From: Rubrivivax sp.
GTDB lineage: Bacteria; Pseudomonadota; Gammaproteobacteria; Burkholderiales; Burkholderiaceae_C
NCBI GenBank assembly: GCA_016790395.1
Contig: JAEUPH010000145.1
Coordinates: 1-42,095 of the forward strand
DNA length: 42,095 nt
Reading direction: 5' to 3'
Position numbers and translations under genes: made by a program. The notes beneath the pieces were generated by a model. That model saw only the letters and a list, made by a program, of their open reading frames with translations, did no database searches and had not been told where the DNA came from. Shown one piece after another: positions 735 to 15,370 of the stretch (position 1 is the stretch's first letter; every line of letters begins with the position of its first letter).

Positions 735-2810
735 ATGCCCAGCCTCACCGTCCCCTGCGTCCTGATGCGCGCCGGCACTTCGCGCGGGCCCTTCTTCCTG
801 CGCGAGTGGCTGCCCGAAGGCGATGCCGCGCGCGACGAGGCCTTGATCGGCGCCATCGGTGCCTCGGACCTGCTGCAGGTGGACGGCGTGGGCGGCGGCA
901 GCACGCTCACCAGCAAGGTGGCCATCGTCTCGAAGAGCGCCGAGCCCGGCTGCGACGTGGACTACCTCTTCGCCCAGGTGGGCGTGGGCGACAAGAGCGT
1001 GGACACGCGGCCCAACTGCGGCAACATGCTCTCGGGCGTGGCGCCCTTCGCCATCGAGCAGGGCCTGGTGAAGGCCCAGCCCGGCCAGACGCGGGTGCGC
1101 GTCTTCAACGTCAACACGCGCTCGCGCATCGACGTCACGGTGCAGACGCCCGGCGGCCGTGTCGCCTACGAAGGCAGCACGGGCATCGACGGCGTGGCCG
1201 GCACGGCGGCGCCCATCCAGCTGGACTTCCTGGACGCCTGGGGCGCCGTCACCGGCTCGGTGTTCCCCACCGGTCGGCGCATCGACACGCTGCTGGGCAT
1301 CGAGGTCACCTGCATCGACGCGGCCATGCCGCTGGTCATCGTGCGCGCTGCCGACCTGGGCCTGAGCGGCCGCGAGTCACCGGCCGAACTGGACGCGAAC
1401 CGCGAACTGCTGGCGCGCCTGGAAAGCCTGCGCCTGGCCGCCGGCGAGGCCATGGGTCTCGGTGACGTGCGCGGCAGCGTGGTGCCCAAGCCCGTGATCG
1501 TGAGCGCCGGCGACGACGAGCACGGCATCACCTCGCGCTACTTCACGCCCAGGCGCTGCCATGCCTCGCATGCCGTCACCGGAGCCATCGGTGTTTCGGC
1601 CGCCTTCGCGCTGCCCGGCACGGTGGCCAGCGGCAGCACCTTCGTCCAGGGTGAGCGCCGCGTGGCGGTGTTGCACCCGCAGGGGCGCATCGATGTCGTC
1701 GTGGCCATCGAGGGCCAGGGCGAGCACGCCGCCATCCGCCGCGCGGCGCTGGTGCGCACGGCGCGAAAGATCCTGCAAGGCGAACTGCACATCCCCGACT
1801 ACGTGTTCTCGAAACCGATCAACGAAGGAGACAGACCGATGAACCCCGCGAAGAAGCTCGCCGCGCCCCTGCTGGCGGCGGCGCTGGCCGCCGCTGCGCC
1901 CATGGCGCTGGCGGCCTACCCCAGCAAGACCATCACCATCGTCGTGCCCACCGCCGCCGGCGGCGGCAACGACGCCATGGCGCGCACCATCGCACAGAAG
2001 CTGGGGCCGATCCTCGGCCAGACCATCATCATCGACAACCGCGCCGGTGCCAACGGCAGCATCGCCAGCGAGTTCGTCGCGCGGTCGGCCGCCGACGGCC
2101 ACACGCTGATGTTCGGCTACATCGCCACGCACAGCATGAACCCGGCGCTGCAGAAACTGCGCTACGACCCCGTGGCCGACTTCGAGCCCGTGGGCCTGGT
2201 GGGCTACTCGCCCACGCTGATGGTGGCCACCGCCAACGTGCCGGTGAAGGACGTCAAGGACCTCGTGGCCCAGCTCAAGGCCAAGCCCGACAAGTTCACC
2301 TACGCCAGCGCCGGCAACGGCACGGCGCCGCACTTCGCGGCCGAACTGTTCAAGCTCAACGCCGGCGTGGTGATGCTGGGCGTGCCCTACAAGGGCTCGG
2401 CGCCGGCCGTCAGCGACACCATCGGCGGCCAGACGCAGTTCATGTTCCCCAGCCTCTTCACGGCGCTGCCGCACGTCAAGAGCGGCAAGCTCAAGGCCCT
2501 GGCCATCGCCGGGCCCAAGCGCACGCCGCTGCTGCCCGAGGTGCCGACGCTCAAGGAAGCCGGCGTCGACGGCGTGGACGTGCAGCAGTGGTACGGCTTC
2601 TTCGCGCCGGCCAAGACGCCCAAGGCCGTGATCGAACAGCTGAACAAGGCGCTGAACCAGGTGCTGAACGACAAGGAGATCATCCAGCGCATCGAGGGCC
2701 ATGGCGCCGACGTCGAGACCAGCACGCCGGAGCAGCTGGGCGCGCTGGTGAAGAGCGAGCTTGTAAAGTGGAAGACCGTGGTGCAAAAAGCAAAGCTCAC
2801 GGCCGACTGA
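735..2810 (+). CDS. PrpF-family isomerase reading in frame into a Bug-family binding protein
   Basis: Residues 1-368 are a complete PrpF-family protein: MPSLTVPCVLMRAGTSRG start, conserved Lys at about 61 (STLTSKVAIV) and PNCGN around Cys95. This family includes 2-methylaconitate isomerase PrpF, 4-oxalomesaconate tautomerase GalD and the fungal aconitate delta-isomerase Adi1, all moving a double bond in unsaturated tricarboxylates. The start at 735 fits family members; in-frame starts upstream (663, 708) fall in or near the operator. No stop codon follows the expected PrpF end (around YVFSKP). The frame continues through a ribosome binding site and the ATG of a Bug protein at 1839, giving 691 residues with an internal signal peptide. 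I expect two polypeptides in practice, or a lost stop or one-base sequence error near 1823. The neighbours suggest aconitate isomerisation. Confidence 0.85.
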   Translation: MPSLTVPCVLMRAGTSRGPFFLREWLPEGDAARDEALIGAIGASDLLQVDGVGGGSTLTSKVAIVSKSAEPGCDVDYLFAQVGVGDKSVDTRPNCGNMLSGVAPFAIEQGLVKAQPGQTRVRVFNVNTRSRIDVTVQTPGGRVAYEGSTGIDGVAGTAAPIQLDFLDAWGAVTGSVFPTGRRIDTLLGIEVTCIDAAMPLVIVRAADLGLSGRESPAELDANRELLARLESLRLAAGEAMGLGDVRGSVVPKPVIVSAGDDEHGITSRYFTPRRCHASHAVTGAIGVSAAFALPGTVASGSTFVQGERRVAVLHPQGRIDVVVAIEGQGEHAAIRRAALVRTARKILQGELHIPDYVFSKPINEGDRPMNPAKKLAAPLLAAALAAAAPMALAAYPSKTITIVVPTAAGGGNDAMARTIAQKLGPILGQTIIIDNRAGANGSIASEFVARSAADGHTLMFGYIATHSMNPALQKLRYDPVADFEPVGLVGYSPTLMVATANVPVKDVKDLVAQLKAKPDKFTYASAGNGTAPHFAAELFKLNAGVVMLGVPYKGSAPAVSDTIGGQTQFMFPSLFTALPHVKSGKLKALAIAGPKRTPLLPEVPTLKEAGVDGVDVQQWYGFFAPAKTPKAVIEQLNKALNQVLNDKEIIQRIEGHGADVETSTPEQLGALVKSELVKWKTVVQKAKLTAD
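1825..1830 (+). promoter_or_regulatory. Ribosome binding site inside the fused frame
   Basis: AAGGAG sits 8 bases before the ATG at 1839. Its presence inside an uninterrupted reading frame argues that the Bug protein is started independently rather than made only as a fusion. Confidence 0.7.
1839..2810 (+). CDS. Bug-family (TctC-like) tripartite tricarboxylate transporter binding protein, internal start
   Basis: Starting at the ATG at 1839 this gives 323 residues, the normal length for the family. Residues 1-26 are a Sec signal peptide (MNPAKKLAAPLL, alanine-rich core, cleavage near ALAAY). The mature protein begins with the Bug hallmark YPSKTITIVVPTAAGGGNDA, and shows RAGANGSIA, a GSAPAVSDT-type ligand loop and the DVQQWYGFFAPAKTP motif. 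Bug proteins bind carboxylates in the periplasm and hand them to TctA/TctB permeases; no such permease is in the window. The position after the isomerase and before the porin suggests capture of the pathway substrate, perhaps aconitate, itaconate or tricarballylate. The reading frame is open upstream into the PrpF domain (see the fused entry). Confidence 0.9.
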   Translation: MNPAKKLAAPLLAAALAAAAPMALAAYPSKTITIVVPTAAGGGNDAMARTIAQKLGPILGQTIIIDNRAGANGSIASEFVARSAADGHTLMFGYIATHSMNPALQKLRYDPVADFEPVGLVGYSPTLMVATANVPVKDVKDLVAQLKAKPDKFTYASAGNGTAPHFAAELFKLNAGVVMLGVPYKGSAPAVSDTIGGQTQFMFPSLFTALPHVKSGKLKALAIAGPKRTPLLPEVPTLKEAGVDGVDVQQWYGFFAPAKTPKAVIEQLNKALNQVLNDKEIIQRIEGHGADVETSTPEQLGALVKSELVKWKTVVQKAKLTAD

Positions 2811-2862
2811 TCGCCGAAGAATCCCAGGTTCCCCTCAACCCGTCGGCTGGAGACAAGACCCG

Positions 2863-3942
2863 ATGAACAAGATCCTCAAACACGCAGCCCTGGGCACCGT
2901 GGCGCTGGCCGCCTGTGGCGCCCAGGCGCAAAGCTCGGTCACCGTGGCCGGCATGGCCGATGCGGCCGTGCGCAGCGTCAGCAACCAGGGCGTGGGCAGC
3001 GTGAAGTCGCTGGTCAGCGGCAGCAACTCCACCAGCCGCATCATCATCCGCGGCGTGGAAGACCTGGGCGGCGGCATGTCGGCCAGCTTCTGGCTCGAGC
3101 ACGGCCTGGCCCTGGACACCGGCGCGGCGGCGCAGGCCACGCAGTTCTGGGACCGCCGGTCCACGGTCAGCCTGTCGGGCAAGAGCTGGGGTGAAGTGCG
3201 CGCGGGCCGCGACTTCGTGCCCACCTACGTGGGCTGGAGCCGTTTCGACCCCTTCGGCCACATCGGCGCGGCCGGCTCGAACAACTTCGCCACCGCCACG
3301 CCCAACGGCCCCATCCGCAGCGCCTTCGGCACCAACCCGAACACCACGGTGCGGGCCAACAACGCGCTGCAGTACTTTCTGCCGGCCGGCCTGGGCGGGC
3401 TGGAAGGCAGCCTGATGCTGGCCGCTGGCGAGGGCGGCGCCGTGGCCAGCGGCCTCACCAAGGTCACGGGCCTGCGGCTGGGCTGGGCGGGTGGCGGCTA
3501 CGGCCTCTCGGTGGCCACGGCCACCAGCGAGAACAGCCTCACCACCGCGGGCAAGTTCAAGGACACGGCCATCGGCGGCAATGCGACGCTCGGCAGCCTG
3601 CGCCTGACCGCAGCCTGGCGCAAGTTCGAGCAGAACGCCGCCGAGCAGACCAACGTGATGGTCGGCGCCATCTATTCCATGGGCCAGAGCGACATCAAGT
3701 TCTCCTACCTGAAGGCGAACATGGCCGGCCGCGTCGGCACCACCGTGATCGACGCGAACGACGCCACACAGATGGGGCTGGGCTACATCTACAACCTGTC
3801 CAAGCGTTCGGCGCTGTACACGCACTACGCGCGCATCAGCAACAAGGGCGCGGCCACCTTCGTGGTGCCGGGCGGGCCCGCGGGCATCGGCGGCGGCAAG
3901 ACCTCCACCGGCTACGAAGCCGGGCTGCGACACACGTTCTGA
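2863..3942 (+). CDS. Gram-negative trimeric porin
   Basis: This 359-residue protein has a signal peptide of about 22 residues (MNKILKHAALGTVALAACGAQAQ) and the Burkholderiales porin start SSVTVAGMADAAV. It then shows alternating aromatic/glycine beta strands (WDRRSTVSLSG, WGEVRAGRDF) and ends in GLRHTF, the C-terminal Phe recognised by the BAM complex. It would form an outer-membrane diffusion channel. Cys18 lies in the signal peptide and is not a lipobox, since cleavage after AQAQ is more likely. A GGAGA ribosome site precedes the ATG. Lying between the Bug protein and the CoA-pathway enzymes, it probably lets the organic acid substrate cross the outer membrane. Confidence 0.93.
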   Translation: MNKILKHAALGTVALAACGAQAQSSVTVAGMADAAVRSVSNQGVGSVKSLVSGSNSTSRIIIRGVEDLGGGMSASFWLEHGLALDTGAAAQATQFWDRRSTVSLSGKSWGEVRAGRDFVPTYVGWSRFDPFGHIGAAGSNNFATATPNGPIRSAFGTNPNTTVRANNALQYFLPAGLGGLEGSLMLAAGEGGAVASGLTKVTGLRLGWAGGGYGLSVATATSENSLTTAGKFKDTAIGGNATLGSLRLTAAWRKFEQNAAEQTNVMVGAIYSMGQSDIKFSYLKANMAGRVGTTVIDANDATQMGLGYIYNLSKRSALYTHYARISNKGAATFVVPGGPAGIGGGKTSTGYEAGLRHTF

Positions 3943-3952
3943 TCTTTGCTTG

Positions 3953-3957
3953 AAGGA
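3953..3957 (+). promoter_or_regulatory. Ribosome binding site deciding a GTG start
   Basis: AAGGA lies 6 bases before GTG at 3964. This favours the GTG over the in-frame TTG at 3946, which has no such site and would lie only 4 bases after the porin stop. Confidence 0.65.
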
Positions 3958-3963
3958 AACCCG

Positions 3964-4809
3964 GTGGACGACCTGACTGCCTGGATCGGCCGCAGCGAGA
4001 CCGTGCACGACATCCTGGGCGCGACGCCGGTGGTGGCGCTCACGGCCACGCTGGACCACCCTGCCACGCCGGTGTCCACCGGCATGCCGCTGCCACCCCT
4101 GTGGCACTGGCTGTACTTCCTGCCCATGCACCGGGCGAGCGAGATCGGGCCCGACGGCCACGCCAGGCGCGGCGGCTTCCTGCCGCCAGTGCCGCTGCCG
4201 CGCCGCATGTGGGCCGGCAGCCAGTTCGAGTTCCACGCGCCGGTGCGGGTGGGCGACGCGGTGGCGCGCAGGAGCACCATCGCCGACGTCACCGTCAAGC
4301 ACGGCCGCACCGGGCAACTGGTGTTCGTGAAGGTGAAGCACGAGCTCTTCTGCAATGGCGCGGCGGCGCCCGCGCTCACCGAGTTCCACGACATCGTCTA
4401 CCGCGAGGCCAAGCAGCCCGGCGACGTGGAACCGCCGCCCGTGCCAGCGCCCACCGGCGCACCCTGGCAGCGCGGCCTGGTGCCGGACGACGTGCTGCTG
4501 TTCCGCTACAGCGCGCTCACCTTCAACGGCCACCGCATCCACTACGACCGCAAGTACGTGACCGAGGTGGAGGGCTACCCGGGGCTCATCGTGCACGGCC
4601 CGCTGATCGCCACGCTGCTGATGGACCTGCTGCGCCGCGAGGCGCCCGACGCCGACGTGGCCGCCTTCCGCTTCAAGGCCGTGCGGCCGACGTTCGACGG
4701 CCGGCCGATGCAGGTGAACGGCCGCCGCGAAGGCCACGAGGTCAAGCTCTGGGCGCAGGACCACGACGGCTGGCTGACGATGGACGCCGTGGCCACGCTG
4801 CGGAGCTGA
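3964..4809 (+). CDS. MaoC/hot-dog acyl-CoA hydratase, itaconyl-CoA / mesaconyl-C4-CoA hydratase type
   Basis: From the GTG at 3964 the protein has 281 residues. It is a double hot-dog protein: an N-terminal FAS1-like dehydratase domain (about 1-150; DLTAWIGRSE start, GGFLPPVPLPRRMWAGS at about 70-86) and a C-terminal MaoC-like domain with FRYSALTFNGHRIHYD at 180-195 and LIVHGPL at 208-214, the active-site region. Relatives hydrate itaconyl-CoA to citramalyl-CoA (Ich) or mesaconyl-C4-CoA (Meh). The stop is 4 bases before a class III CoA-transferase, and a CitE-like lyase follows. This is the Ict-Ich-Ccl trio of itaconate breakdown, so itaconyl-CoA is the likeliest substrate. The mesaconyl form is the main alternative. 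Confidence 0.87.
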   Translation: MDDLTAWIGRSETVHDILGATPVVALTATLDHPATPVSTGMPLPPLWHWLYFLPMHRASEIGPDGHARRGGFLPPVPLPRRMWAGSQFEFHAPVRVGDAVARRSTIADVTVKHGRTGQLVFVKVKHELFCNGAAAPALTEFHDIVYREAKQPGDVEPPPVPAPTGAPWQRGLVPDDVLLFRYSALTFNGHRIHYDRKYVTEVEGYPGLIVHGPLIATLLMDLLRREAPDADVAAFRFKAVRPTFDGRPMQVNGRREGHEVKLWAQDHDGWLTMDAVATLRS

Positions 4810-4813
4810 CGCG

Positions 4814-6013
4814 ATGCAACCGCTGAAGGGCATCACCGTCGTCGCGCTGGAACACGCCATCGCAGCACCGTTCTGCACGCGCCAGCTGGCCGACCTGGGC
4901 GCCCGCGTCATCAAGATCGAACGCCCCGGCGTCGGCGACTTCGCGCGCGGCTACGACCAGCGCGTGAAGGGCCTGGCCTCGCACTTCGTCTGGACCAACC
5001 GCAGCAAGGAGAGCCTCACGCTGGACGTGAAGCACCCGCGCGCCGCCGAGCTGCTGCTGAAGCTGGTCACCGAGAAGGCCGACGTCGTGGTGCAGAACCT
5101 CGCCCCCGGCGCCGCGGCGCGCTTGGGCGTGAGCTGGGACGCGCTGCAGGAACGCCGGCCCGACCTCATCGTCTGCGACATCAGCGGCTACGGCGACGAC
5201 CCGTTCGTGCCCGGCCCCTTCCGCGACAAGAAGGCCTACGACCTGCTGATCCAGAGCGAGAGCGGCTTCGTCAGCGTCACCGGCACGCCGGACGAACCCA
5301 GCAAGGCGGGCCTGTCCATCGCCGACATCTCGGCCGGCATGTACGCCTACAGCAACATCCTGGCCGCGCTGCTGCAGCGGAACGTCGATGGTCGCGGTCG
5401 CCGCATCGACATCAGCATGCTCGAAGCGATGGGCGAGTGGATGGGCTACGCCATGTACTACGCCTTCGACGGCGCCCCGCCGCCGCCCCGTGCCGGCGCC
5501 GCGCACGCCACGATCTACCCCTACGGCCCCTTCCCCTGCGGCGATGGCAAGACCGTGATGCTGGGCCTGCAGAACGAACGCGAGTGGCAGCAGTTCTGCG
5601 CCAAGGTGCTGCTGCAGCCCGCGCTGGCGCAGGACGAGCGCTTCACCGGCAACGCCAAGCGCAGCGCGAACCGCGAGGTGCTGCGCGCGATGATCGTCGA
5701 GACCTTCGGCGCGCTCACCGCCGCGCAGGTGACCGAGCGGCTGGAAGAGGCGCAGATCGCCAACGCCGAACTGCGCGACATGGCCGGCCTCTGGCGGCAC
5801 GAACAGCTGGCCGCGCGCGGCCGGTGGCGCGAAGTGGGCACCTCGGCCGGCCCGGTGCCGGCGCTGCTGCCGCCCGGCAGCTGGGGCGGCACCGCGGGCG
5901 AGCCGCGCATGGACGCCGTGCCCGCGCTGGGCCAGCACACCGAGGCCATCCTGCACGAGCTGGGCGTTGACGAAACAGGCATCGCCGCGCTGCGCGAGGC
6001 CGAGGCCATCTGA
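4814..6013 (+). CDS. Class III (CaiB/BaiF) CoA-transferase, probably itaconate or mesaconate CoA-transferase
   Basis: This 399-residue protein starts with LKGITVVALEHAIAAPFCT and LADLGARVIKIERP, the usual family III opening. The catalytic Asp is about residue 171 in GLSIADISAGMYAY. Family III enzymes move CoA from a donor such as succinyl-CoA to a carboxylate through aspartyl-CoA intermediates. The genes on both sides encode a hydratase and a CitE-like lyase that would act on the product. The CoA acceptor is therefore most likely itaconate (Ict) or mesaconate. A GGAG lies 8 bases before the ATG, overlapping the end of the previous gene, so translation is probably coupled. Exact acceptor and donor cannot be told from sequence. 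Confidence 0.9.
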   Translation: MQPLKGITVVALEHAIAAPFCTRQLADLGARVIKIERPGVGDFARGYDQRVKGLASHFVWTNRSKESLTLDVKHPRAAELLLKLVTEKADVVVQNLAPGAAARLGVSWDALQERRPDLIVCDISGYGDDPFVPGPFRDKKAYDLLIQSESGFVSVTGTPDEPSKAGLSIADISAGMYAYSNILAALLQRNVDGRGRRIDISMLEAMGEWMGYAMYYAFDGAPPPPRAGAAHATIYPYGPFPCGDGKTVMLGLQNEREWQQFCAKVLLQPALAQDERFTGNAKRSANREVLRAMIVETFGALTAAQVTERLEEAQIANAELRDMAGLWRHEQLAARGRWREVGTSAGPVPALLPPGSWGGTAGEPRMDAVPALGQHTEAILHELGVDETGIAALREAEAI

Positions 6014-6017
6014 ACCC

Positions 6018-6821
6018 ATGCCGGCACGCAGCTACCTGTTCGTGCCGGGGGACCGGCCGGAACGCTTCGCCAAGGCGCTGGCCAGCGGCGCCGACGCGGT
6101 GGTGCTGGACCTGGAAGATGCCGTGGCCCCGTCGGCCAAGGACGCGGCGCGCGCCGCCATCGCCGCCTGGCTCACCACGCTGCCCGAACGGGATCGCGTG
6201 GTGGTGCGCATCAACGACGCCCACAGCCCCTGGTACGACGCCGACCAGGAGATGCTGGCCGGCGCAGGCGCCGCTGCCGTGATGCTGCCCAAGGCCGAAG
6301 AGCCCGAGGTGCTGGAAGCGCTGTCCGCGCGCTGCCGCGGCGTCGCCATCTTGCCGCTGGTGGAGACGGCGCGCGGCATGCTCGCCGCACAAACCCTGGC
6401 CGCGTCCACCGGCGTGCAGCGTCTGGTCTTCGGCACGCTGGACTACGCGCTGGAGCTGGACCTCGGCACCGACCCCATCGCGCTCGATGCGGGCCATGCG
6501 CAGCTGGCGCTCGTCTCGCGCGCGGCCGGCATCGAAAGCCCGGTGGCCGGCGTCACGACAGCGCTGGACGACGAGGCCCAGCTGCTCGCCGACTTTGCCC
6601 GCGCACGTGCACACGGCTTCGGCGCCAAGCTGTGCATCCATCCCAGGCAGGTGGCACCGCTGCATGCGGCGCTGAGGCCTGCGCCGCAGGAGCTGGACTG
6701 GGCGCGCCGCATCCTGGTGGCCGCCGAACGGTCGGCCGGCGCCGCGGTGCAGGTGGACGGCCGCATGGTCGACCGCCCCGTCATCGAACGCGCACGCCGC
6801 ATCGTCGCGCGCGCCGGCTGA
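6018..6821 (+). CDS. CitE-like citramalyl-CoA lyase (HpcH/HpaI family)
   Basis: The chosen ATG at 6018 gives 267 residues and the family start ARSYLFVPGDRPERF; an in-frame start 51 bases upstream would overlap the transferase. Motifs are VVLDLEDAV (29-36, magnesium site), VVVRIND (62-67), VMLPKAE (88-94), LPLVETARGM and FGTLDYALEL. The fold is a TIM barrel that splits 3-hydroxyacyl-CoAs. In the itaconate pathway this enzyme (Ccl) cleaves (S)-citramalyl-CoA to acetyl-CoA and pyruvate. The 4-base gap after the transferase and the following lyase gene support a single operon. Malyl-CoA or citryl-CoA lyase activity is possible but less suited to the context. Confidence 0.88.
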   Translation: MPARSYLFVPGDRPERFAKALASGADAVVLDLEDAVAPSAKDAARAAIAAWLTTLPERDRVVVRINDAHSPWYDADQEMLAGAGAAAVMLPKAEEPEVLEALSARCRGVAILPLVETARGMLAAQTLAASTGVQRLVFGTLDYALELDLGTDPIALDAGHAQLALVSRAAGIESPVAGVTTALDDEAQLLADFARARAHGFGAKLCIHPRQVAPLHAALRPAPQELDWARRILVAAERSAGAAVQVDGRMVDRPVIERARRIVARAG

Positions 6822-6862
6822 ACCGCACGACACGACTTACGAGAGACAAGGACCCCGCCGCC

Positions 6863-8224
6863 ATGGCCGCTTCCATCATCGACAGCAGCATCTTCCAGGG
6901 CATCTTCACCACCGACGCCATGCGCGCCGTTTGGAGCGACGAGAACCGCACCGCCAAGTACATCGACGTCGAGCGCGCGCTGGCCCGGGTGCAGGCGCGG
7001 CTGGGCCTGATCCCGCAGGAGGCCTGCGACGAGATCGTCAGCCACTGCGAGCTGGCGCAGATCGACATGGCGCGACTGCGCCAGCAGACCGAGCGCATCG
7101 GCTACCCCATCCTGGGCGTCGTCACGCAGATCAACCAGCTGTGCCGCGACAAGCTGGGCGAGTACGTGCACTGGGGCGCCACCACGCAGGACATCACCGA
7201 CACCGCCACCGTGCTGCAGATCCGCGAGGCGCTGCAGCTGGTGGACGACGAGCTGGTGGCCATCGCCAAGGCCTTGGGGAAGCTGGCGAAGGACCATCGG
7301 CTGACGCCGGTGATCGGCCGCAGCAACCTGCAGCAGGCCATCCCCGTGACCTTCGGCTACAAGATGGCGGGCATCCTGGCGTCGGTGCTGCGGCACCGCG
7401 AGCGCATCGCGCAGCTGCGCGAACGCGTGCTGGTGGGCGAGTTCGCCGGCGCGGCCGGCACGCTGGCCTCGCTGGAGAGCGGCGCGATGGAGACGCAGGC
7501 GGGTCTGTGCGCCGAGCTGGGCCTGGCGCAGCCCGTGATCGCCTGGCACACGATCCGCGACAACATCGCCGAAGTCGGCGCGGTGCTGGGCCTGATCGGC
7601 GGCACGCTGGGCAAGCTGAGCACCGACGTGAAGCTGATGATGCAGACCGAAGTGGGCGAGGTCTACGAGCCCTACCACCATGGCCGCGGCAGCAGCAGCA
7701 CCATGCCGCAGAAGCGCAACCCGATCAGCAGCGCCTACACGCACGGCGCCATCAGCGTCGTGCGCCAGCACGCGGCGGCGCTGATGGACGCGATGGTGGC
7801 CGACCACGAGCGCAGCACCGGGCCGTGGCAGATCGAGTGGATCGTGCTGCCCGAGTCCTTCTGCCTGCTGGCCGGTGCACTGAAGCAGATGCGCACCGTG
7901 CTCGAAGGCCTGGAAGTGGACCCCGCCGCGATGCGCCGCAACATCGAGATGACGCAGGGCCTGGTGATGAGCGAAGCGGTGATGATGGGCCTGGGCCGCT
8001 TCATCGGCCGCGAGTACGCGCACGACCTGGTGTACGACCTGTGCCGCGAATCGCTGAAGACCCAGCGCCCGCTGCTGGACCTGCTGGCCGAGCACCCGCA
8101 GATCAACGCCCACGTCAGCCGCGAGCAGCTGCTGGCGATGCTGGACCCGGCCAACTACCTGGGCCAGAGTGGCGTGATGGTCGACCGCGTGCTGGCCGAA
8201 CTGGAGCGTCAACTCGGGGCATGA
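6863..8224 (+). CDS. Class II fumarase/aspartase-superfamily lyase (PcaB-like; candidate trans-aconitate decarboxylase)
   Basis: From ATG 6863 the protein has 453 residues. It carries the superfamily signatures HWGATTQDITDT (103-114) and GRGSSSTMPQKRNP (274-287), the loop with the catalytic serine. It most resembles 3-carboxy-cis,cis-muconate cycloisomerase (PcaB) and adenylosuccinate-lyase-like proteins. No other protocatechuate genes and no purine genes are nearby. Instead it follows the itaconate-type CoA enzymes and shares an operon with a PrpF-family isomerase. In Ustilago maydis, itaconate is made by Adi1 (PrpF family) and Tad1 (this superfamily), so a trans-aconitate decarboxylase role is proposed here. 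That is inference; a true cycloisomerase, or a lyase for another tricarboxylate, remains possible. A GAGAGACAAGGA stretch precedes the start. Confidence 0.85.
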   Translation: MAASIIDSSIFQGIFTTDAMRAVWSDENRTAKYIDVERALARVQARLGLIPQEACDEIVSHCELAQIDMARLRQQTERIGYPILGVVTQINQLCRDKLGEYVHWGATTQDITDTATVLQIREALQLVDDELVAIAKALGKLAKDHRLTPVIGRSNLQQAIPVTFGYKMAGILASVLRHRERIAQLRERVLVGEFAGAAGTLASLESGAMETQAGLCAELGLAQPVIAWHTIRDNIAEVGAVLGLIGGTLGKLSTDVKLMMQTEVGEVYEPYHHGRGSSSTMPQKRNPISSAYTHGAISVVRQHAAALMDAMVADHERSTGPWQIEWIVLPESFCLLAGALKQMRTVLEGLEVDPAAMRRNIEMTQGLVMSEAVMMGLGRFIGREYAHDLVYDLCRESLKTQRPLLDLLAEHPQINAHVSREQLLAMLDPANYLGQSGVMVDRVLAELERQLGA

Positions 8225-8234
8225 TGCGCGCTCG

Positions 8235-9539
8235 ATGACCGCAGCGCTTCTCCACACCCTTCCCAACGGCGTCCGCGTGCTCGCGCTGCCGCAGCCCTGG
8301 CGCCAGGGCGTCAACCTCAGCGTCTTCGTCGCCAGTGGCAGCCTGCACGAGCCGCGGCGGCTGAACGGCATCAGCCATGTCGTGGAGCACATGGCCTTCA
8401 AGGGCACGGTGCGGCGCGACAACGCCAGCATCAACCTCGACGCCGAACGCCTGGGCGCCGACGTCAACGCCCACACCGACAAGGACCACACGGCCTTCCA
8501 CATCGACGGCCTGGGTCGCGACCTGCCGGCCTTCGTGGAGCTGCTCTCGGACATCGTGCTGCACAGCACCTTCCCCGAGGTGGAACTGGAGCGCGAGAGG
8601 CAGGTCATCCGCCACGAGTTCACCGAGTTCGACGACGACCCGGCCACCACCGCCTTCAACGTCTTCGACCGCGCCTGCTGGGGCTGGCACCCGCTGGCGC
8701 AGCCGGTGATCGGCCGCCGTGCCAACCTGGAGCGCTTCACCGGCGACGACCTGCGCGGCTGGGTGGCGCAGCAGTACGTGCCCGGCCGCGTGATGGTGGC
8801 GGCGGTGGGCGGGCTGGACGCGTCGGCCTTCGTTCGCGCCGCCGAGGCGGGGTTCGGCGCACTGCGCGGCGCAGCGCTGCCGGTCCCGGCGCCGCCGTCC
8901 TGGCTGGGCGGGATCAAGTTGCGGCGCCTGTCGGGCAGTTCGCAGTGCCACGTCATCGTCGGCCATGCCGCGCCGCCGCTGGCCGACCCCGCGCATCATG
9001 CCTGGCGTCTGGCCGCCGCCGTGCTGGGCGAGGGCATGAGCTCGCCGCTGCTGGACCGCCTGCGCGAGCGGCGAGGCCTGGCCTACCACGCGGCCTGTTC
9101 GGCCGACATCGGCCCGCTGGCCGGCCAGTTCGTCGTCGAGGCCGCCACCGCGCCCGAGCAGGCCGTGGAGGTGCTGGACGAGATCGCCGCGCTGCTGGCG
9201 GCGCACGCCGAGCGCGTCTCGCCGGTGGACCTGGAGCGTGCCCGCGAGCAGCTCGTGGTGCGCGCACTGCGCACCCCCGAGCAGCCCGTGCGCCTGCTGG
9301 AGACCACCGTGCAGGAAGTCTTCGCGCTGGGTCGGCCGGCCGACCCGGCGTCAGCCATGGCGCGGCTGCGCGCGCTCACGGCCGACGACGTGCGCGCGGT
9401 GTTCCGCCAGATGCAGGCCGCGGTGCCCGCGGTGGCCTTGGCCGGCCAGGTGCCGGCGGCGGTGCGCCTGCGGGCGCAGGCGCTGTTCGGCAACTGCCAG
9501 AATCCCCACGAAGAAGACCCTGAAGGAGACACACCATGA
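8235..9539 (+). CDS. M16-family zinc metallopeptidase
   Basis: This 434-residue protein has the inverted zinc motif HVVEH at 48-52 and the third ligand near Glu128 (VIRHEFTEFDDDP), so it looks catalytically competent. The N-terminal half is the catalytic M16 domain (about 10-155) and the C-terminal half is the inactive M16C domain (about 165-345), with RERRGLAYHA in the usual place. No signal peptide is seen, so it probably acts in the cytoplasm, or in the periplasm by an unseen route. It starts 11 bases after the lyase and overlaps the next Bug gene by ATGA, so it is cotranscribed with catabolic genes, an odd setting for a peptidase. Its target is unknown. Confidence 0.9.
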   Translation: MTAALLHTLPNGVRVLALPQPWRQGVNLSVFVASGSLHEPRRLNGISHVVEHMAFKGTVRRDNASINLDAERLGADVNAHTDKDHTAFHIDGLGRDLPAFVELLSDIVLHSTFPEVELERERQVIRHEFTEFDDDPATTAFNVFDRACWGWHPLAQPVIGRRANLERFTGDDLRGWVAQQYVPGRVMVAAVGGLDASAFVRAAEAGFGALRGAALPVPAPPSWLGGIKLRRLSGSSQCHVIVGHAAPPLADPAHHAWRLAAAVLGEGMSSPLLDRLRERRGLAYHAACSADIGPLAGQFVVEAATAPEQAVEVLDEIAALLAAHAERVSPVDLERAREQLVVRALRTPEQPVRLLETTVQEVFALGRPADPASAMARLRALTADDVRAVFRQMQAAVPAVALAGQVPAAVRLRAQALFGNCQNPHEEDPEGDTP

Positions 9540-10507
9540 CCATCACCCGACGTACCGCGCTGGCCGCGTCCACCCTGGCCGTGCCCGCGCTGGCCCGCGC
9601 GCAGGCCGGCTGGCCGAAGCAGAGCATCCGCTTTGTCGTGCCCTTCGCGCCGGGGGGCACCAGCGAGATCGTGGCGCGCACGGTGGCGCAGGAGCTCACC
9701 AAGCAGTTGGGACAGACGGTCTACGTCGACAACAAGGGGGGCGGCGCCGGCATTCCCGCCATGCAGGACGTGGCCAAGGCCGCGCCCGACGGGCACACCA
9801 TCATCCTGGGCCACGTGGGCTCGCTGGCGGTGAACCCGTACATCTTCCCCAACCAGCCCTACGACGTGAACCGCGACTTCATCCCGGTCACGCTGCTGGC
9901 CAAGGTGCCCAACCTCTTCGTCATCCATCCCAGCGTGCCGGCGAACAACTTCCGGGAGTTCGTGGCCCACGTGAAGAAGAACCCGGGCAAGCTGAACTAC
10001 GGCTCGGCCGGCAACGCCAGTGCCGGCCACCTGGCGATGGAGTACCTGAAGCTGGTGACGGGCATGTTCATCACGCACATCCCCTACCGCGGCACCGGCC
10101 CGCAACTGACGGATCTTCTGGCCGGCCGCACCGAAGCCAGCAGCGCCGGCCTGCCCGCGCTGCTGCCGCACATCAAGAGTGGCAAGTTGCGCGCCATCGC
10201 CGTGGGCACGCCGCAGCGACTGCCGGCCCTGCCCGACGTGCCGACGGTGGCCGAGATGGGCTTCAAGGACTTCGAGACCTCGCAGTGGTACGGCATCCTG
10301 GCACCGGCCGGCACGCCGCGCGAGGTGGTCAAGCGGCTGCAGGAAGAATCGCAGAAGGCGCTGAAGAGCAACAGCGTGACCGAGCGATTCGCCAGCGACA
10401 GCGCGGTGGGGGGCGGCGGGCCGCCGGAGGAGTTCGCGGCCTACATCGCGCAGCAGCAGAAGACCTGGAAGGACATCGTCAAGCGCGCGGGCATCAAGCC
10501 GGATTGA
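9536..10507 (+). CDS. Bug-family (TctC-like) periplasmic binding protein
   Basis: This 323-residue protein overlaps the peptidase stop by 4 bases and has AAGGAG 7 bases before its ATG. The signal sequence MTITRRTALAASTLAVPALA carries twin arginines and ends at ARAQA, so Tat export is possible. The mature part has SIRFVVPFAPGGTSEIVA, a THIPYRGTGPQLTDL ligand loop and SQWYGILAPAGTPREV, all Bug family hallmarks. It sits directly before tcuA, so tricarballylate or aconitate is the natural ligand guess. No TctA/TctB membrane partner is nearby, as is common for Bug proteins in Burkholderiales. Confidence 0.93.
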   Translation: MTITRRTALAASTLAVPALARAQAGWPKQSIRFVVPFAPGGTSEIVARTVAQELTKQLGQTVYVDNKGGGAGIPAMQDVAKAAPDGHTIILGHVGSLAVNPYIFPNQPYDVNRDFIPVTLLAKVPNLFVIHPSVPANNFREFVAHVKKNPGKLNYGSAGNASAGHLAMEYLKLVTGMFITHIPYRGTGPQLTDLLAGRTEASSAGLPALLPHIKSGKLRAIAVGTPQRLPALPDVPTVAEMGFKDFETSQWYGILAPAGTPREVVKRLQEESQKALKSNSVTERFASDSAVGGGGPPEEFAAYIAQQQKTWKDIVKRAGIKPD

Positions 10508-10510
10508 TGG

Positions 10511-10588
10511 ACCCCCAGGCTCACTTCGTTCGCCACCCCCCGAGGGGGCTCTGTCTGCGGACCGGCGGAGCCGGATCCGCGCCAGGCC
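10511..10588 (+). repeat. Intercistronic palindromic repeat, copy 1
   Basis: The core at 10511-10549 reads CCCCCAGGCTCACTTCGTTC and then a CCCCC-CGA-GGGGG hairpin. Close copies lie at 37592-37631 and 40878-40916 on the minus strand. The flank to about 10588, including a shared AGCCGGATCCGCGCC, also matches the flank of copy 2. It fills the gap between the Bug gene and tcuA. All three copies sit between genes of one operon and have the same orientation relative to transcription. Confidence 0.8.
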
Positions 10589-10596
10589 CTGGTCGC

Positions 10597-10600
10597 GGAG
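10597..10600 (+). promoter_or_regulatory. Ribosome binding site deciding a TTG start
   Basis: GGAG lies 9 bases before the TTG at 10610, just downstream of the repeat. It supports TTG over the in-frame GTG at 10631, which falls too close to the Rossmann motif. Confidence 0.5.
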
Positions 10601-10609
10601 ATCTTCGTC

Positions 10610-12025
10610 TTGTCGTCCTCATCGCTTGATGTGCTCGTCATCGGCGGCGGCAACGCCGCCCTCTGCGCCGCGCTGACCGCGCGCGAAGCCGGCGCCTCGG
10701 TGCTGATGCTGGAGGCCGCGCCGCGCGAATGGCGCGGTGGCAACAGCCAGCACACGCGCAACATCCGCTGCATGCACGACGCGCCGCAGGACGTGCTGAC
10801 CGAGGCCTACCCCGAAGAGGAGTTCTGGCAGGACCTGCTGAAGGTCACCGGCGGCAGGACCACCGAGCCCCTCACCCGCCGCGTCATCCGCGACTCGCAC
10901 CACGTGCGCGGCTGGATGCGCCGGCACGGCGTGCACTTCCAGCCGTCGCTGTCGGGCACGCTGCACCTCAGCCGCACCAATGCCTTCTTCATGGGCGGCG
11001 GCAAGGCGCTGGTCAACGCCTACTACCGCAGTGCCGAGGCGCTGGGCGTGCAGGTGCGCTACGGGGCGCCCGTGAAGCACATCGAACTGCAGGGCAGGGC
11101 CTTTGCGGCGGCCGTGCTGGACAGCGGCGAGCGCATCGCCGCCCGCGCCTGCGTGCTGGCCGCCGGTGGTTTCGAGAGCAACCGCGATTGGCTGCGCGAG
11201 GCCTGGGGCACCAACGAGCGCGGCGAGCAGCCCGCCGAGCAGTTCCTCATCCGCGGCACGCGCTTCAACCAGGGCGTGTTGCTCAGGGACCTGATCGCCC
11301 AGGGCGCCGACACCATCGGCGACGCCACGCAGGCGCACATGGTGGCCATCGACGCCCGCGCGCCGCTGTACGACGGCGGCATCTGCACGCGGGTGGACTG
11401 CGTCTCGCTGGGCATCATGGTCAACCGCGAAGGCCGGCGCTTCTACGACGAGGGCGAGGACTTCTGGCCCAAGCGCTACGCCATCTGGGGCCGCCTGGTG
11501 GCCCTGCAGCCGGGGCAGGTGGGGCATTCGATCATCGACGCGAAGGCCATCGGCCGCTTCATGCCGCCGGTGTTCAAGGGCGCTCGCGCCGACACGCTGG
11601 AAGACCTGGCGAAAGAACTCTCGCTGCCGCCCGACACCTTCGCGGCCACCGTGCGCGAGTTCAACGCCGCCTGCCGCGAAGGAAGCTTCGACCACGCCGT
11701 GCTCGACGATTGCCACACCGAAGGATTGAGCCCGGCGAAGACGCACTGGGCTCGGCCGATCGACACGCCGCCCTTCTTCGGCTACACGCTCAGGCCCGGT
11801 GTCACCTTCACCTACCTGGGCCTGAAGACCGACGAAGCCGCGGCGGTGCACTTCGGCGGGCGGCCCAGCGGCAACCTCTTCGTCGCCGGCGAGATGATGG
11901 CCGGCAACGTGCTGGGCCAGGGCTACACCGCGGGCGTGGGCATGACCATCGGCACCGTGTTCGGGCGGCTGGCCGGCGCTTCGGCCGCGCAGGCCGTCAA
12001 GGAGACCGCGCGTGCAGGCGCTTGA
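10610..12025 (+). CDS. tcuA: FAD-dependent tricarballylate dehydrogenase TcuA
   Basis: This 471-residue flavoprotein of the FrdA/SdhA-like family starts with the dinucleotide-binding motif [19 protein letters not shown]. Other family features are [31 protein letters not shown] and the C-terminal [20 protein letters not shown], which packs the FAD. TcuA of Salmonella oxidises tricarballylate to cis-aconitate, which relieves the toxicity of that citrate analogue. The neighbour tcuB overlaps by 14 bases and is its known redox partner, so the assignment is strong. TTG is the likely start. The product cis-aconitate is a plausible substrate for the PrpF-family isomerase upstream, linking this gene to the CoA enzymes. 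Confidence 0.92.
11999..12004 (+). promoter_or_regulatory. Ribosome binding site deciding the tcuB GTG start
   Basis: AAGGAG lies 7 bases before GTG 12012, inside the end of tcuA. It supports a GTG start overlapping tcuA by 14 bases. Confidence 0.7.
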
Positions 12026-13115
12026 ATCGCTCATCGCCGAGGCCGAGGTCTCGCGCGTGCTGCAGATCTGCAACGCCTGCCGCTACTGCGAAGGCTTCTG
12101 CGCCGTCTTCCCGGCCATGACGCGGCGGCTGGACTTCCCTCCTGCCGATGCGCACTACCTCGCCAACCTGTGCCACAACTGCGGCGCGTGCCTGCACGCC
12201 TGCCAGTACGCGCCACCGCATGAATTCGCGGTCAACGTGCCGCAGGCGATGGCGAAAGTACGCGGCCGCACCTACGAGCACTACGCCTGGCCGCCAGCCT
12301 TCGGCGCGGCCTACCGCAAGAACGGACTCGTGCTCTCGCTGGCGCTGGCCGCGGGCCTGGCGCTGTTCCTGGGGCTGGCGTCGAAAGTGAATGGCATTCC
12401 GCCCGGCGGGAGCTTCTACGACATCTTCCCGCACGGCCTGATGGTGTCGCTGTTCCTCCCGGTGTTCGCCTTCGCCGTGCTCGCGCTGGGCATCGGCATC
12501 GCCTGCTTCTGGCGGGACGGGGCTCCCGGTGCGACCAGCAGCCCGGCCGTGGCCGAGGCCGCGCACGATGCGCTGACGCTGAAGTACCTGGATGGCGGCC
12601 ACGGCCAGGGCTGCAACGAAGAAGCCGACCGCTTCACCCGAGAGCGCCGCGCGGTGCACCACGCCACGTTCTACGGTTTCGGGTTGTGCTTTGCATCCAC
12701 CAGCGTGGCCACGGTCTACCACTACGTCTTCGGCTGGGTCGCGCCCTACGGCTGGACCAGCCTGCCCAAGCTGCTGGGCGGGGCCGGCGGTGTGCTGCTG
12801 GTGCTGGGCTGCGCCGGCCTGCTGCGCCTGCGCCTGAAGCGTCACCACGAGCACCAGCTCAGCGAGCAGCGCCCCATGGACCTGGCCTTCATCGCCTTGC
12901 TGGGGCTCACCGGTGCCAGTGGCCTGATGCTGGCGCTGGCGCACGGGACGGCGGCTTTGCCCGCGCTGCTGTGCCTGCACCTCGGTGCGGTGATGGCCCT
13001 CTTCGTGACGCTGCCCTACGGCAAGTTCGCGCATGCCGGCTACCGCGTGGCGGCGTTGCTGAAGTGGGCCGTCGAGAAGCGCCAGCCCCAGCGCCTGAAG
13101 CTCGGCTCGGAATGA
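12012..13115 (+). CDS. tcuB: Tricarballylate utilization protein TcuB (Fe-S membrane electron carrier)
   Basis: The 367-residue protein has two four-cysteine clusters, Cys20/23/26/30 ([11 protein letters not shown]) and Cys54/57/60/64 ([11 protein letters not shown]), each fit to hold a [4Fe-4S] centre. These are followed by about six hydrophobic segments from residue 100 onward. TcuB reoxidises the FADH2 of TcuA and passes electrons to the membrane quinone pool. The start is GTG 12012 with a strong ribosome site; the stop overlaps the next regulator by ATGA, so tcuA-tcuB-lysR is one translational unit. The usual TcuC permease is absent; Bug proteins may replace it. Confidence 0.93.
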
Positions 13116-14299
13116 GCGCGGTGCCGGCGCTGCGGCTGCTGCGCTGCGTGGTGGCGGTGGCCGAGGCCGGCAGCGCGGCGCGCGCCGGGGCGCGCCTGCA
13201 CCTGTCGGTGTCGGCCGTCACGCGCGCGGTGCAGCAGGCCGAAGCGCACATCGGCCTGCCCCTGTTCGAGCGTGGCGCGCGCGGCATGGTCGGCACGCCG
13301 GCCGGCCAGCTGCTGGTGGCGCGCGCCGGGCGGGCCTTCGCCGAGCTGCAGCGCGGCCTGGGCACGGGCCTGCTGCCGCGGGTGAGTGATGCCATGCTGG
13401 ACGCCTTGCTGGCCGTGGCCGAGACGGGCAGCGAAGGGGCGGCCGCAGCGCGGCTGGGTCTGTCCCAGCCCGCCGTGCACGGCGCGCTGCGCCAGCTGGA
13501 GCATGGCGCGCGCCAGCCCCTCTTCGAGCGGACGCGGCGCGGCACGCGGCTCACCGACGCCGGGTTGACCCTGCTGCGCCACGCCCGGCTGGCGCTGGCC
13601 GAGTTGCGCACGGGGCAGGACGAGCTGGCGGCCTTCCTCGGCCTGGCGCCCGGCCGCGTGGCGCTGGGCGCACTGCCCATGGCGGCCGACGTGCTGGTGC
13701 CGCAGGCGCTGTCAAGACTCTTCGCCGAGGAGCCGGCCCTGCAGGTGACGGTGGTGGACGGCACCTACGAGGCCTTGCTGCACCAGCTGCGCCACGGGGA
13801 CATCGACTTCATCGTCGGCCCGCTGCGCGGCACCGCCGCGCCGGCCGACGTGGCCGAGCAGCTGCTCTTCGATGACCGCCTGCGCCCGGTGGTGCGCGCT
13901 GGCCATCCGGCACGGGCGGGCGACCGGCCCCCGCGCCGTCTGAAGGCGTTGCTGCGGTGGCCCTGGGTGGGCCCGTTGCCCGGCACGCCGGCCCGTGCGG
14001 CTTTCGAGCGGGCCTTCACGGCCGCCAGCCTGGACGTGCCGACCGTGGTGCTGCAGGCCAACAGCCCGGCCGTCGTGCGATCGGTGCTGATGGCCGGGGA
14101 TGCGGTGGCCATGCTGTCGCCGCTGCAGATTCGCGCCGAGCTGGCTTCGGGCCTGCTGGCCCTGCTGGCGGTGCCGGTGCAGGGCACCGAGCGGGCCATC
14201 GGCGTCACCCTGCGGCGCGATGGCCTGCCTTCGCCGGCCTGCGTGCGCCTGCTGGCCGCCCTGCAGGCCGTGGCTCGCGTCGCGTCGCCGGAGTCATAA
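13112..14299 (+). CDS. LysR-family regulator with two N-terminal helix-turn-helix domains
   Basis: The 395-residue protein is about 90 residues longer than a normal LysR protein. Residues 7-66 form one LysR winged helix ([22 protein letters not shown]) and residues 95-155 form a second ([20 protein letters not shown] then [15 protein letters not shown]). A single substrate-binding domain follows (about 180-385, [20 protein letters not shown]). The first wing and helix are less typical than the second. It overlaps tcuB by 4 bases and would work like TcuR, controlling tricarballylate genes. The doubled DNA-binding domain may let one protomer touch two half-sites. No frameshift is needed to explain it. 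Confidence 0.9.
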
Positions 14300-14398: not shown

Positions 14399-15370
14399 AT
14401 GAGCGTCACCAGACGCCACTTCACCGCCACCGCGCTGCTGGCCTCGGCCTGGCCGAGGCTGACGCATGCCCAGGCCTGGCCGAGCAAGCCCTTGCGTGTC
14501 TTCGTCGGCTACAGCGCCGGCGGGGCGGTGGACGTGATCGCACGCGCCGTCGGCCAGCCGCTGGGCGCGGCGTTGGGCCAGACGGTGGTGGTGGAGAACA
14601 AGCCCGGCGCCGGCACCAACATCGCCATGCGCGCGCTCATCGACAGCCCGGCCGACGGCCACACGCTGATGCTGGTGGCCAATGCCGTGGCCGCCAATCC
14701 CACGCTGTACCAGCCGCCGCCCTTCGACCCGCAACGCGACCTCACGCCCATCTCGCTGGTGGGCCGCGTGCCGGTGGTCATCGCGGCCAACGCGGCGAGC
14801 GAGGTGAACTCGCTGCAGAAGCTGATCGCGCTGTCCAGGGCCAAGCCCGGCTCCATCAACTTCGGCAGCCCGGGCAACGGCTCCACGCCGCACCTGGCGG
14901 TGGAACTGTTCCAGCGTGCCGCCGGCATCGAACTCGTGCACGTGCCCTACAAGGGCGGCAGCCAGGCCATCACCGACACGCTGGCGGGCCACATCCAGAC
15001 CGTGGCCGTCAACGCGCTGGAAGTGCAGGCCCAGGTGAAGGCCGGCAAGCTGCGCGTGCTGGCGGTGCTGGCGCCAGAACGCAGCCCCATCTTCCCCGAT
15101 GTGCCCAGCATCGCCGAAAGCGGCTACCCGGGCTTCGAGGCGAGCGTCTGGTACGGCTTCGTCGGCCCGGCCGGCGTGCCGGCGCCGGTGGTGGCGCGGC
15201 TGCATGCCGAGATCCAGAAGATCCTGCTGCTGCCCGAAGTCAAGGGCCGCCTCGCTTCGGCCGGCGGCGAGGTGCTGCCAGGGCCCGTGGAGCGCTTTGC
15301 CCAGTTGCTCCTCGACGAGAAGAACCGCTATGGAAAGCTCATCCGTGAAGCCAAGATCCAGCCTGATTGA
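14399..15370 (+). CDS. Bug-family (TctC-like) periplasmic binding protein
   Basis: The ATG at 14399, preceded by GAGGAG at a 6-base spacing, gives 323 residues. The N-terminus MSVTRRHFTATALLASAWP matches the Tat consensus (T-R-R-x-F), with likely cleavage after THAQA. Family motifs are PLRVFVGYSAGGAVDVIA, KPGAGTNIA, HVPYKGGSQAITDT and SVWYGFVGPAGVP. It belongs to the periplasmic carboxylate-binding proteins. It follows the regulator after about 100 bases and overlaps the next lipoprotein gene by 41 bases. Its ligand cannot be read from sequence. Confidence 0.92.
   Translation: MSVTRRHFTATALLASAWPRLTHAQAWPSKPLRVFVGYSAGGAVDVIARAVGQPLGAALGQTVVVENKPGAGTNIAMRALIDSPADGHTLMLVANAVAANPTLYQPPPFDPQRDLTPISLVGRVPVVIAANAASEVNSLQKLIALSRAKPGSINFGSPGNGSTPHLAVELFQRAAGIELVHVPYKGGSQAITDTLAGHIQTVAVNALEVQAQVKAGKLRVLAVLAPERSPIFPDVPSIAESGYPGFEASVWYGFVGPAGVPAPVVARLHAEIQKILLLPEVKGRLASAGGEVLPGPVERFAQLLLDEKNRYGKLIREAKIQPD

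Follow-up and report, generated by a model that had tools for sequence, protein, structure and literature searches.

Grasses release trans-aconitate, which inhibits aconitase; itaconate is known both as an antimicrobial and as a product of smut fungi. The subject of this analysis is a forward gene block at positions 735 to 13115 of a 42,095-nucleotide stretch of Rubrivivax sp. DNA (contig JAEUPH010000145.1 of assembly GCA_016790395.1; hereafter the window), which is predicted to link these two acids with tricarballylate. The source genome measures 3.9 Mb and is rated 75% complete. The nearest described counterparts of the block each resemble part of it. In the TcuRABC system of Salmonella, cis-aconitate is taken to enter the tricarboxylic acid (TCA) cycle directly; to our knowledge that system includes neither a trans-aconitate decarboxylase (Tad) nor the itaconate trio, that is, the CoA-transferase Ict, the hydratase Ich, and the lyase Ccl. 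It shares with the window the TcuA and TcuB families, whose cut-offs the window proteins exceed.

The itaconate cluster of Ustilago maydis, like the Rubrivivax block, has a PrpF-family isomerase (Adi1) and a trans-aconitate decarboxylase (Tad1) that resembles 3-carboxy-cis,cis-muconate cycloisomerase (CMLE) (PMC4720413). The Ustilago cluster, however, is fungal and biosynthetic and has an export protein, and its gene table lists neither the CoA trio nor TcuAB (PMC4720413), whereas the route in Rubrivivax should be catabolic. TarRAB of Bacillus velezensis likewise joins a PrpF-family aconitate isomerase to uptake and a LysR-type regulator, but TarA routes trans-aconitate to cis-aconitate and the TCA cycle (PMC11495376); the words “decarboxylase”, “itaconate”, “itaconic” and “tricarballyl” are absent from the main text of that paper. 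The itaconate cluster of the Pseudomonas aeruginosa type contains the same three enzymes, Ict, Ich, and Ccl, as the window. It also serves methylsuccinate (PMC12290011), whereas the itaconate consumed by the window enzymes should arise within the cell from trans-aconitate. At the tricarboxylate locus of Acinetobacter baylyi, according to a paper that cites the work, the metabolism of tricarballylate and that of aconitate are closely linked (PMC12338516).

The sequence-only reading of the window had placed TcuA and TcuB, a PrpF-family isomerase, a fumarase-superfamily lyase, and the CoA trio in one forward block, and the open reading frames (ORFs), together with matches to Pfam, NCBIfam and Protein Data Bank (PDB) entries, bear this out. 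On the plus strand the order is PrpF–Bug1, porin, Ich, Ict, Ccl, lyase, M16 peptidase, Bug2, TcuA, TcuB, a LysR-type regulator with two helix-turn-helix (HTH) domains, and Bug3 (Table 1). Neighboring block genes are separated by −14 to 102 bases, a spacing that fits a single operon. We consider it highly probable that these genes form a catabolic operon for C6 tricarboxylates of the plant type, in which the whole route runs via itaconate and PrpF and TcuAB act as feeders.

From the observed gene content, gene order, relationships and residues we infer the reactions of this locus, along with transport and induction. Uptake of the acids would rely on the porin and on carriers of the Bug type. 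TcuAB would convert tricarballylate to cis-aconitate, which the PrpF domain would interconvert with trans-aconitate; the lyase would then decarboxylate trans-aconitate to itaconate, with release of CO2. Ict would form itaconyl-CoA from itaconate and succinyl-CoA, Ich would convert this to (S)-citramalyl-CoA, and Ccl would split the latter into acetyl-CoA and pyruvate. The conserved core would thus lead from trans-aconitate through itaconate to acetyl-CoA and pyruvate, with PrpF and TcuAB feeding it in part of the clusters. A likely benefit is that trans-aconitate, as an inhibitor of aconitase, would be consumed without passing through that enzyme.

Among PDB entries the lyase is closest to Tad1: five distinct Ustilago chains score 505–513 bits, compared with 424 bits for 3c8t, an uncharacterised “fumarate lyase” of unstated reaction, and 382 and 312 bits for the CMLE entries 1re5 and 1q5n. 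The alignment with Tad1 extends gap-free over 436 residues at 54% identity. The closest named relatives come from Rubrivivax and Ideonella. When 299 genomes of the window's own family were sampled (matches at E ≤ 1e-120), the lyases split into a high set, with 70–89% identity to the window protein (43 genomes, the window's included), and a middle set with 49–54% identity (14 genomes, five of which also carry a high-set lyase); none fell between. Identity to fungal Tad1 was computed for 144 distinct sequences and amounts to 54–61% for 106 of the high set and 45–51% for 15 of the middle set, the remaining 23 reaching at most 42%. A careful tree of 54 sequences, from which four very distant and six long-branch rows were omitted, places Tad1 as sister to the high-set clade of bacterial cluster lyases (support 100/99.9), so that the Ustilago and window-type enzymes are sister groups. 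A topology with Tad1 beside the middle set is rejected (p-AU 0.0058), and a quick 64-row tree gave Tad1 the same placement.

The relationship extends to individual residues. Fifteen alignment columns are of Tad1 type, kept by more than 95% of the high set and by Tad1 and rare in the other sets. The column of Tad1 Ser320 (Ser277 in the window) is occupied by serine in all 106 high-set sequences, by alanine or glycine in all 15 middle-set ones, and by glycine or threonine in all 19 low-set ones; that of Asn198 (Asn155) holds asparagine in 106/106 of the high set and histidine in 15/15 of the middle set. Ser320 is alanine in one deposited Tad1 chain, 9h4h, and the Tad1 chains that differ in this way are presumably engineered mutants. 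Arg360 and Gly123 (Arg317 and Gly80 in the window), altered in another chain, are likewise kept in 106/106 of the high set, and are not Tad-specific because the middle set keeps them too. The sequence-only reading had assigned the lyase to the Tad1 family; best match, tree, active-site signature and conserved neighbors support its identification as a Tad1-like enzyme and not a CMLE.

It might nevertheless be asked whether the lyase is simply the 3-carboxy-cis,cis-muconate cycloisomerase (PcaB) that serves in protocatechuate breakdown and happens to lie beside unrelated acid genes. The two belong to one superfamily, RefSeq calls one close homologue pcaB, and a protocatechuate 3,4-dioxygenase beta subunit scores over its cut-off in 10 of the 36 Tad genomes searched. 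The lyase nearly reaches the cut-off of the pcaB model TIGR02426 (352.8 against 355.75 bits) and scores 501 bits on NF006554, for which 595 are required. These are misses all the same: no curated NCBIfam cut-off is reached, TIGR02426 being the nearest, and the score for Tad1 is far higher. The Tad signature, moreover, replaces the residues of the other lyase groups. The dioxygenase beta subunit is lacking over its cut-off in the other 26 genomes, 20 of which have sub-cut-off matches, and the 75%-complete window genome gives no match to it. On score, tree, signature and the distribution of the dioxygenase the PcaB/CMLE identification was rejected, and we regard it as very improbable.

The enzymes predicted to act after the Tad1-like lyase are also recognizable by their best matches. 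Ich scores 243 bits against the itaconyl-CoA hydratase 8khg, the next different PDB protein reaching 20, and Ccl scores 203 bits against both 8khl and 9nzb, followed by a protein at 121 bits. We take 8khl and 9nzb to be PA0883 of P. aeruginosa; PA0882, the known itaconate CoA-transferase, is presumably a family III CoA-transferase. The itaconate CoA-transferase of C. necator is 60% identical to PA0882 (PMC12290011). The top NCBIfam family for Ccl is RipC_Ccl (NF038242), at 139 bits and under the cut-off of 375. The identity of the trio as itaconate-type enzymes, also proposed by the sequence-only reading, is supported by these best matches and by a conserved place beside the lyase.

That place was examined in two samples, which share genomes and are not independent: the 42 high-set loci of the family sample other than the window's, and the best 80 of 280 lyase relatives from the database. 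Near the lyase in the 42 family loci lie Ich (39 loci), Ict (38), Ccl (29), a PrpF that reaches 70% identity (27), and, within about 9 kb, TcuA (4). The same-strand order Ich–Ict–Ccl–lyase occurs in 28 loci and Ich–Ict–lyase in 10; because the arrangement recurs in 38 of 42, it is not due to chance. At least one trio gene is found in 74 of the 80 database loci, all three in 47, a PrpF that reaches the same 70% in 35, and TcuA or TcuB, at a distance of up to 10 kb, in 6. Some apparent gaps are filled from elsewhere in the genome, where searches covered Ccl and Ich: 13 of the 42 loci lack Ccl, and all eight of those genomes that were searched carry a Ccl of 50–55% identity at another position, just as Ich lies elsewhere in all three genomes (G473, G492, G180) that were searched for it because their lyase locus is without it. 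One locus (L158) reads PrpF–Bug1–porin–lyase without the trio, and another (L145) is truncated by the contig end. Near middle-set lyases, Ich, Ccl and PrpF were found in none of 14 loci. A further middle-set lyase (L214; contig G492:C140, about 5.4–9.3 kb), with 51% identity to that of the window, is encoded directly 5′ of TcuA–TcuB; its reaction may differ from that of the window lyase.

The cluster also occurs on plasmids. In Bradyrhizobium sp. CB82 the plasmid pCB82_1 carries DctA–Ich–Ict–Ccl–lyase (L217, 3770–9359), and since this plasmid is typed as conjugative, the cassette may spread between bacteria. An Azospirillum brasilense plasmid shows PrpF–DctA–Ich–(unannotated gap)–lyase, and a plasmid of Variovorax SRS16 shows Ich–Ict–Ccl–lyase–DctA, with a PrpF fusion further along. 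In three annotated loci (L215, L216, L217) the RefSeq name of the lyase is either pcaB or adenylosuccinate lyase family protein, and that of the isomerase is 4-oxalomesaconate tautomerase; these names are probably misleading for the clade.

The company kept by the lyase also bears on the direction of the pathway. Tad1 and Adi1 of Ustilago are biosynthetic (PMC4720413), and by analogy the bacterial genes could make itaconate for secretion instead of breaking it down. The lyase is, however, found together with three itaconate-degrading families and with proteins of uptake type (binding proteins, porin, DctA), which makes a secretory role extremely improbable.

Assignment of the isomerase is less direct, resting on context, on separation from GalD in the tree, and on published PrpF-family aconitate isomerases. 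The best PDB matches of the window PrpF are YbhH (386 bits) and the 4-oxalomesaconate tautomerase GalD (308 bits). With 482.8 bits it exceeds the cut-off of 440 for NF033377, the NCBIfam model named for that tautomerase, and RefSeq gives the same name to PrpF proteins of Tad loci, so the domain could be a GalD serving gallate or protocatechuate breakdown. The NF033377 model, however, picks up other members of the PrpF family as well. Five proteins of the family sample that score 512–534 bits on it are unfused and group with Pseudomonas putida GalD (100/99), and at L209, the single locus of these five that was scanned, a LigK-type aldolase lies beside PrpF. The window PrpF and its close relatives, 18 of which were picked by hand for the tree, form a separate clade that includes Tad- or TcuAB-linked proteins. 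Tad-cluster or TcuAB genes are the recurrent neighbors of window-type PrpF, gallate genes having been sought near some of the loci.

TarA and TbrA, which are aconitate isomerases, belong to the PrpF family (PMC11495376), as does Adi1, whose closest homologue of known function is given as oxalomesaconate tautomerase (PMC4720413). GalD was therefore rejected as the principal identification on tree and context, although the NCBIfam cut-off is exceeded, and we judge it improbable; the window PrpF is probably not a GalD despite its NCBIfam name, and its context points to an aconitate isomerase. Lys61 and Cys95, which correspond to a lysine and a cysteine that differ between deposited GalD chains, are kept in every aligned relative that has no gap there (58 of 60). 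The PrpF proteins of Azospirillum and of some other Tad loci are just 44–53% identical and fall elsewhere in the tree, which means that the isomerase was recruited more than once or replaced. Escherichia coli YbhH (6otv, a “putative isomerase” in the PDB) groups with the PrpF proteins of the Azospirillum Tad clusters (L054, L055, L056, L060, L064; support 91/83, with long branches flagged), which hints that YbhH may be an aconitate isomerase.

At the other end of the proposed route, TcuA and TcuB both lie over their curated cut-offs, and their association with Tad can be followed at two levels. Of the 43 Tad genomes, 23 carry TcuA, compared with 63 of the 256 genomes without Tad (Fisher p = 2.3e-4, with no correction for kinship). 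The survey of co-occurrence that the sequence-only reading had proposed thus finds both the same-strand trio–lyase arrangement and an enrichment of TcuA. Its single route from tricarballylate fares less evenly: the core from trans-aconitate recurs, but TcuA is linked to the lyase in just 4 of the 42 family loci and TcuA or TcuB in 6 of the 80 database loci.

This scarcity of linkage suits a different arrangement, in which two independent modules stand side by side and no joined route exists: TcuAB would channel tricarballylate by way of cis-aconitate into the TCA cycle, while Tad and the trio would work on imported trans-aconitate or itaconate. The Tad core of the Bradyrhizobium plasmid, with no PrpF or TcuAB within about 8 kb, fits this description as well. 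In the window, on the other hand, the two modules lie closely packed in a single forward block, PrpF has links to each of them, and the association of Tad with TcuAB recurs in several arrangements (L002, L006, L010, L011, L034, L173, L175). TcuAB lies 3′ of the Tad genes on the same strand in the window, L002, L010, L137, L173 and L175; it is divergent and upstream in L006 (the same genome region as L140), and downstream on the opposite strand in L011 and L034, with TcuB alone in L030. That the linked arrangements differ suggests repeated joining. Four loci without Tad (L197–L200), in which a PrpF 64–78% identical to the window's adjoins TcuAB, were picked because TcuA lay near PrpF; they prove that the link exists and do not give its frequency. 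Separate modules are unlikely on this evidence, though the possibility deserves to be taken seriously.

The joined catabolic route, with its Tad1-like lyase and PrpF isomerase, has to be weighed against several observations that count against it, to which the scarcity of linked TcuA belongs. None of Ich, Ict and Ccl reaches a named NCBIfam cut-off. Fifteen of the 42 family loci, some of them truncated by contig ends, lack a PrpF that reaches 70% identity. The lyase stands alone in L159, and in L196, from another family and with a lyase of 71% identity, no trio gene lies nearby. Ile315, altered in a third Tad1 chain, varies among the lyases (alanine, histidine or tyrosine; His272 in the window). 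Tad1 is the lone fungal row in the tree and has a long branch, which limits any reading of the direction of transfer between bacteria and fungi. Finally, a phylum-wide sample of 299 genomes, searched at E ≤ 1e-150, yielded the window's own lyase as its sole match, so that spread beyond the Burkholderiales rests on database relatives and annotated plasmids.

The isomerase has a further feature, passed over by the sequence-only reading: its frame runs without a stop into that of the adjoining TctC/Bug solute-binding domain, Bug1 (open frame 660–2810, ORF 735–2810). An assembly error behind the absent stop was ruled out, as the frame is open in 53 of 60 relatives and RefSeq annotates the fusion of the Variovorax SRS16 plasmid as one 674-residue protein (WP_162571173.1). 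Those 60 are the distinct PrpF proteins that reach 60% identity, of which seven are unfused; fusion is found in 49/49 from loci with Tad and in 4/11 from loci without it. The distant PrpF proteins (44–53%) of Tad loci are unfused in 10/10.

The fusions fall into two classes. In the first (40 proteins, the window's included) the linker contains a Shine–Dalgarno-like site, an ATG or GTG, and residues that resemble a signal peptide; in the window the site reads AAGGAGAC and is followed by an ATG. A free, exported Bug1 is therefore possible besides the fusion. In the second class (13 proteins) the linker has no signal peptide, and the TctC domains should thus stay cytoplasmic. Two fused proteins without a signal peptide (L175, L178) were judged by eye. 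No internal start was found in the linkers of the 10 first-classed members of the second class, nor in that of L073, by a loose Shine–Dalgarno pattern with no shuffled control. Besides that of the window, fused frames lie at L075:12522-14549 and L215:16850-18874. Motifs of the TctC domain (glycine-rich, SAG.GT) are kept in both classes, and beside WP_162571173.1 lies a separate binding-protein gene that opens with a signal-peptide-like stretch. An AlphaFold model of the L075 fusion has a predicted template modelling score (pTM) of 0.46 and a low-confidence linker, and contacts between its domains are unreadable. It is a guess that the fused TctC domain feeds or senses substrate.

The remaining genes of the region are listed in Table 1; the porin, the M16 and Bug2 genes, the two-HTH regulator and the divergent LysR gene had, like the fused frame, gone unremarked in the sequence-only reading. 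A porin of at least 50% identity lies near the lyase in 15 of the 42 family loci. Five TctC/Bug-type genes or domains, four recognized by Pfam and the third by eye, occur within a 17-kb part of the window, and no TctA/TctB membrane partner was found among the part of the window ORFs that was scanned. The M16 peptidase gene interrupts the block between the lyase and Bug2, and L002 is the sole case among the 80 database loci with such a gene in the same place. The start of the two-HTH LysR gene overlaps the stop codon of TcuB.

Table 1. Genes and domains of the tricarboxylate block and its surroundings in the Rubrivivax window.
Feature	Position	Strand	Basis
LysR-type regulator, divergent, truncated by contig start	1..644	-	HTH from ~644 down, recognised by eye
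PrpF-family isomerase domain, predicted aconitate delta-isomerase (cis <-> trans)	735..1838	+	Pfam PF04303, 358 bits
TctC/Bug solute-binding domain (Bug1), fused in frame to PrpF	1839..2810	+	Pfam PF03401, 222 bits
Gram-negative porin, predicted outer-membrane entry for acids	2863..3942	+	Pfam PF13609, 168 bits
Ich, putative itaconyl-CoA hydratase	3946..4809	+	best PDB match 8khg, 243 bits
Ict, family III CoA-transferase, predicted succinyl-CoA:itaconate CoA-transferase	4814..6013	+	Pfam PF02515, 342 bits
Ccl, putative CitE-like (S)-citramalyl-CoA lyase	6018..6821	+	best PDB matches 8khl/9nzb, 203 bits
Tad-like lyase, predicted trans-aconitate decarboxylase	6863..8224	+	Tad1, 513 bits; tree; signature residues N155/S277
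M16-family metallopeptidase, HVVEH motif	8235..9539	+	Pfam PF00675 and PF05193
TctC/Bug solute-binding protein 2 (Bug2)	9536..10507	+	Pfam PF03401, 249 bits
TcuA, FAD-dependent tricarballylate dehydrogenase	10610..12025	+	NF006130, 743 bits (cut-off 369)
TcuB, 4Fe-4S partner of TcuA	12012..13115	+	NF011607, 583 bits (cut-off 524); two Cys-rich motifs
LysR-type regulator, two tandem HTH_1 domains	13112..14299	+	Pfam PF00126 (two stretches), PF03466
TctC/Bug-type gene (Bug3)	14399-15370		by eye
TctC/Bug-type solute-binding gene	16157-17137		Pfam
TctC/Bug-type solute-binding gene	17189-18178		Pfam

The proposed route is a real and well-supported variation on known catabolic modules, joining known kinds of enzymes in a combination that we did not find described in the literature searched. 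The openly licensed part of PubMed Central (CC0, CC BY, CC BY-SA), outside which most subscription journals lie, yielded a description of neither a bacterial Tad route nor a PrpF–TctC fusion. A broader picture can be drawn tentatively, and we hold it with slightly less than even confidence: the pathway for trans-aconitate and tricarballylate would be widespread in bacteria, with itaconate as an ordinary intermediate within the cell; Tad1 would derive from bacterial stock; and the isomerase would represent a new kind of two-domain enzyme, one whose TctC domain binds tricarboxylates, seen in stages from a nested gene that has a signal peptide to a wholly cytoplasmic fusion.

The best described bacterial route that we found, that of TarA, returns trans-aconitate to aconitase, and decarboxylation to itaconate would provide another means of disposing of it. 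If the proposal is correct, the names pcaB, adenylosuccinate lyase and 4-oxalomesaconate tautomerase in the databases would be corrected for these proteins, and bacterial Tad enzymes would become available for itaconate production. The PrpF–TctC fusion makes the role of a periplasmic-type binding domain in the cytoplasm testable. Environmental bacteria such as the Burkholderiales and Azospirillum would, moreover, have a reason to carry itaconate genes that has nothing to do with macrophages.

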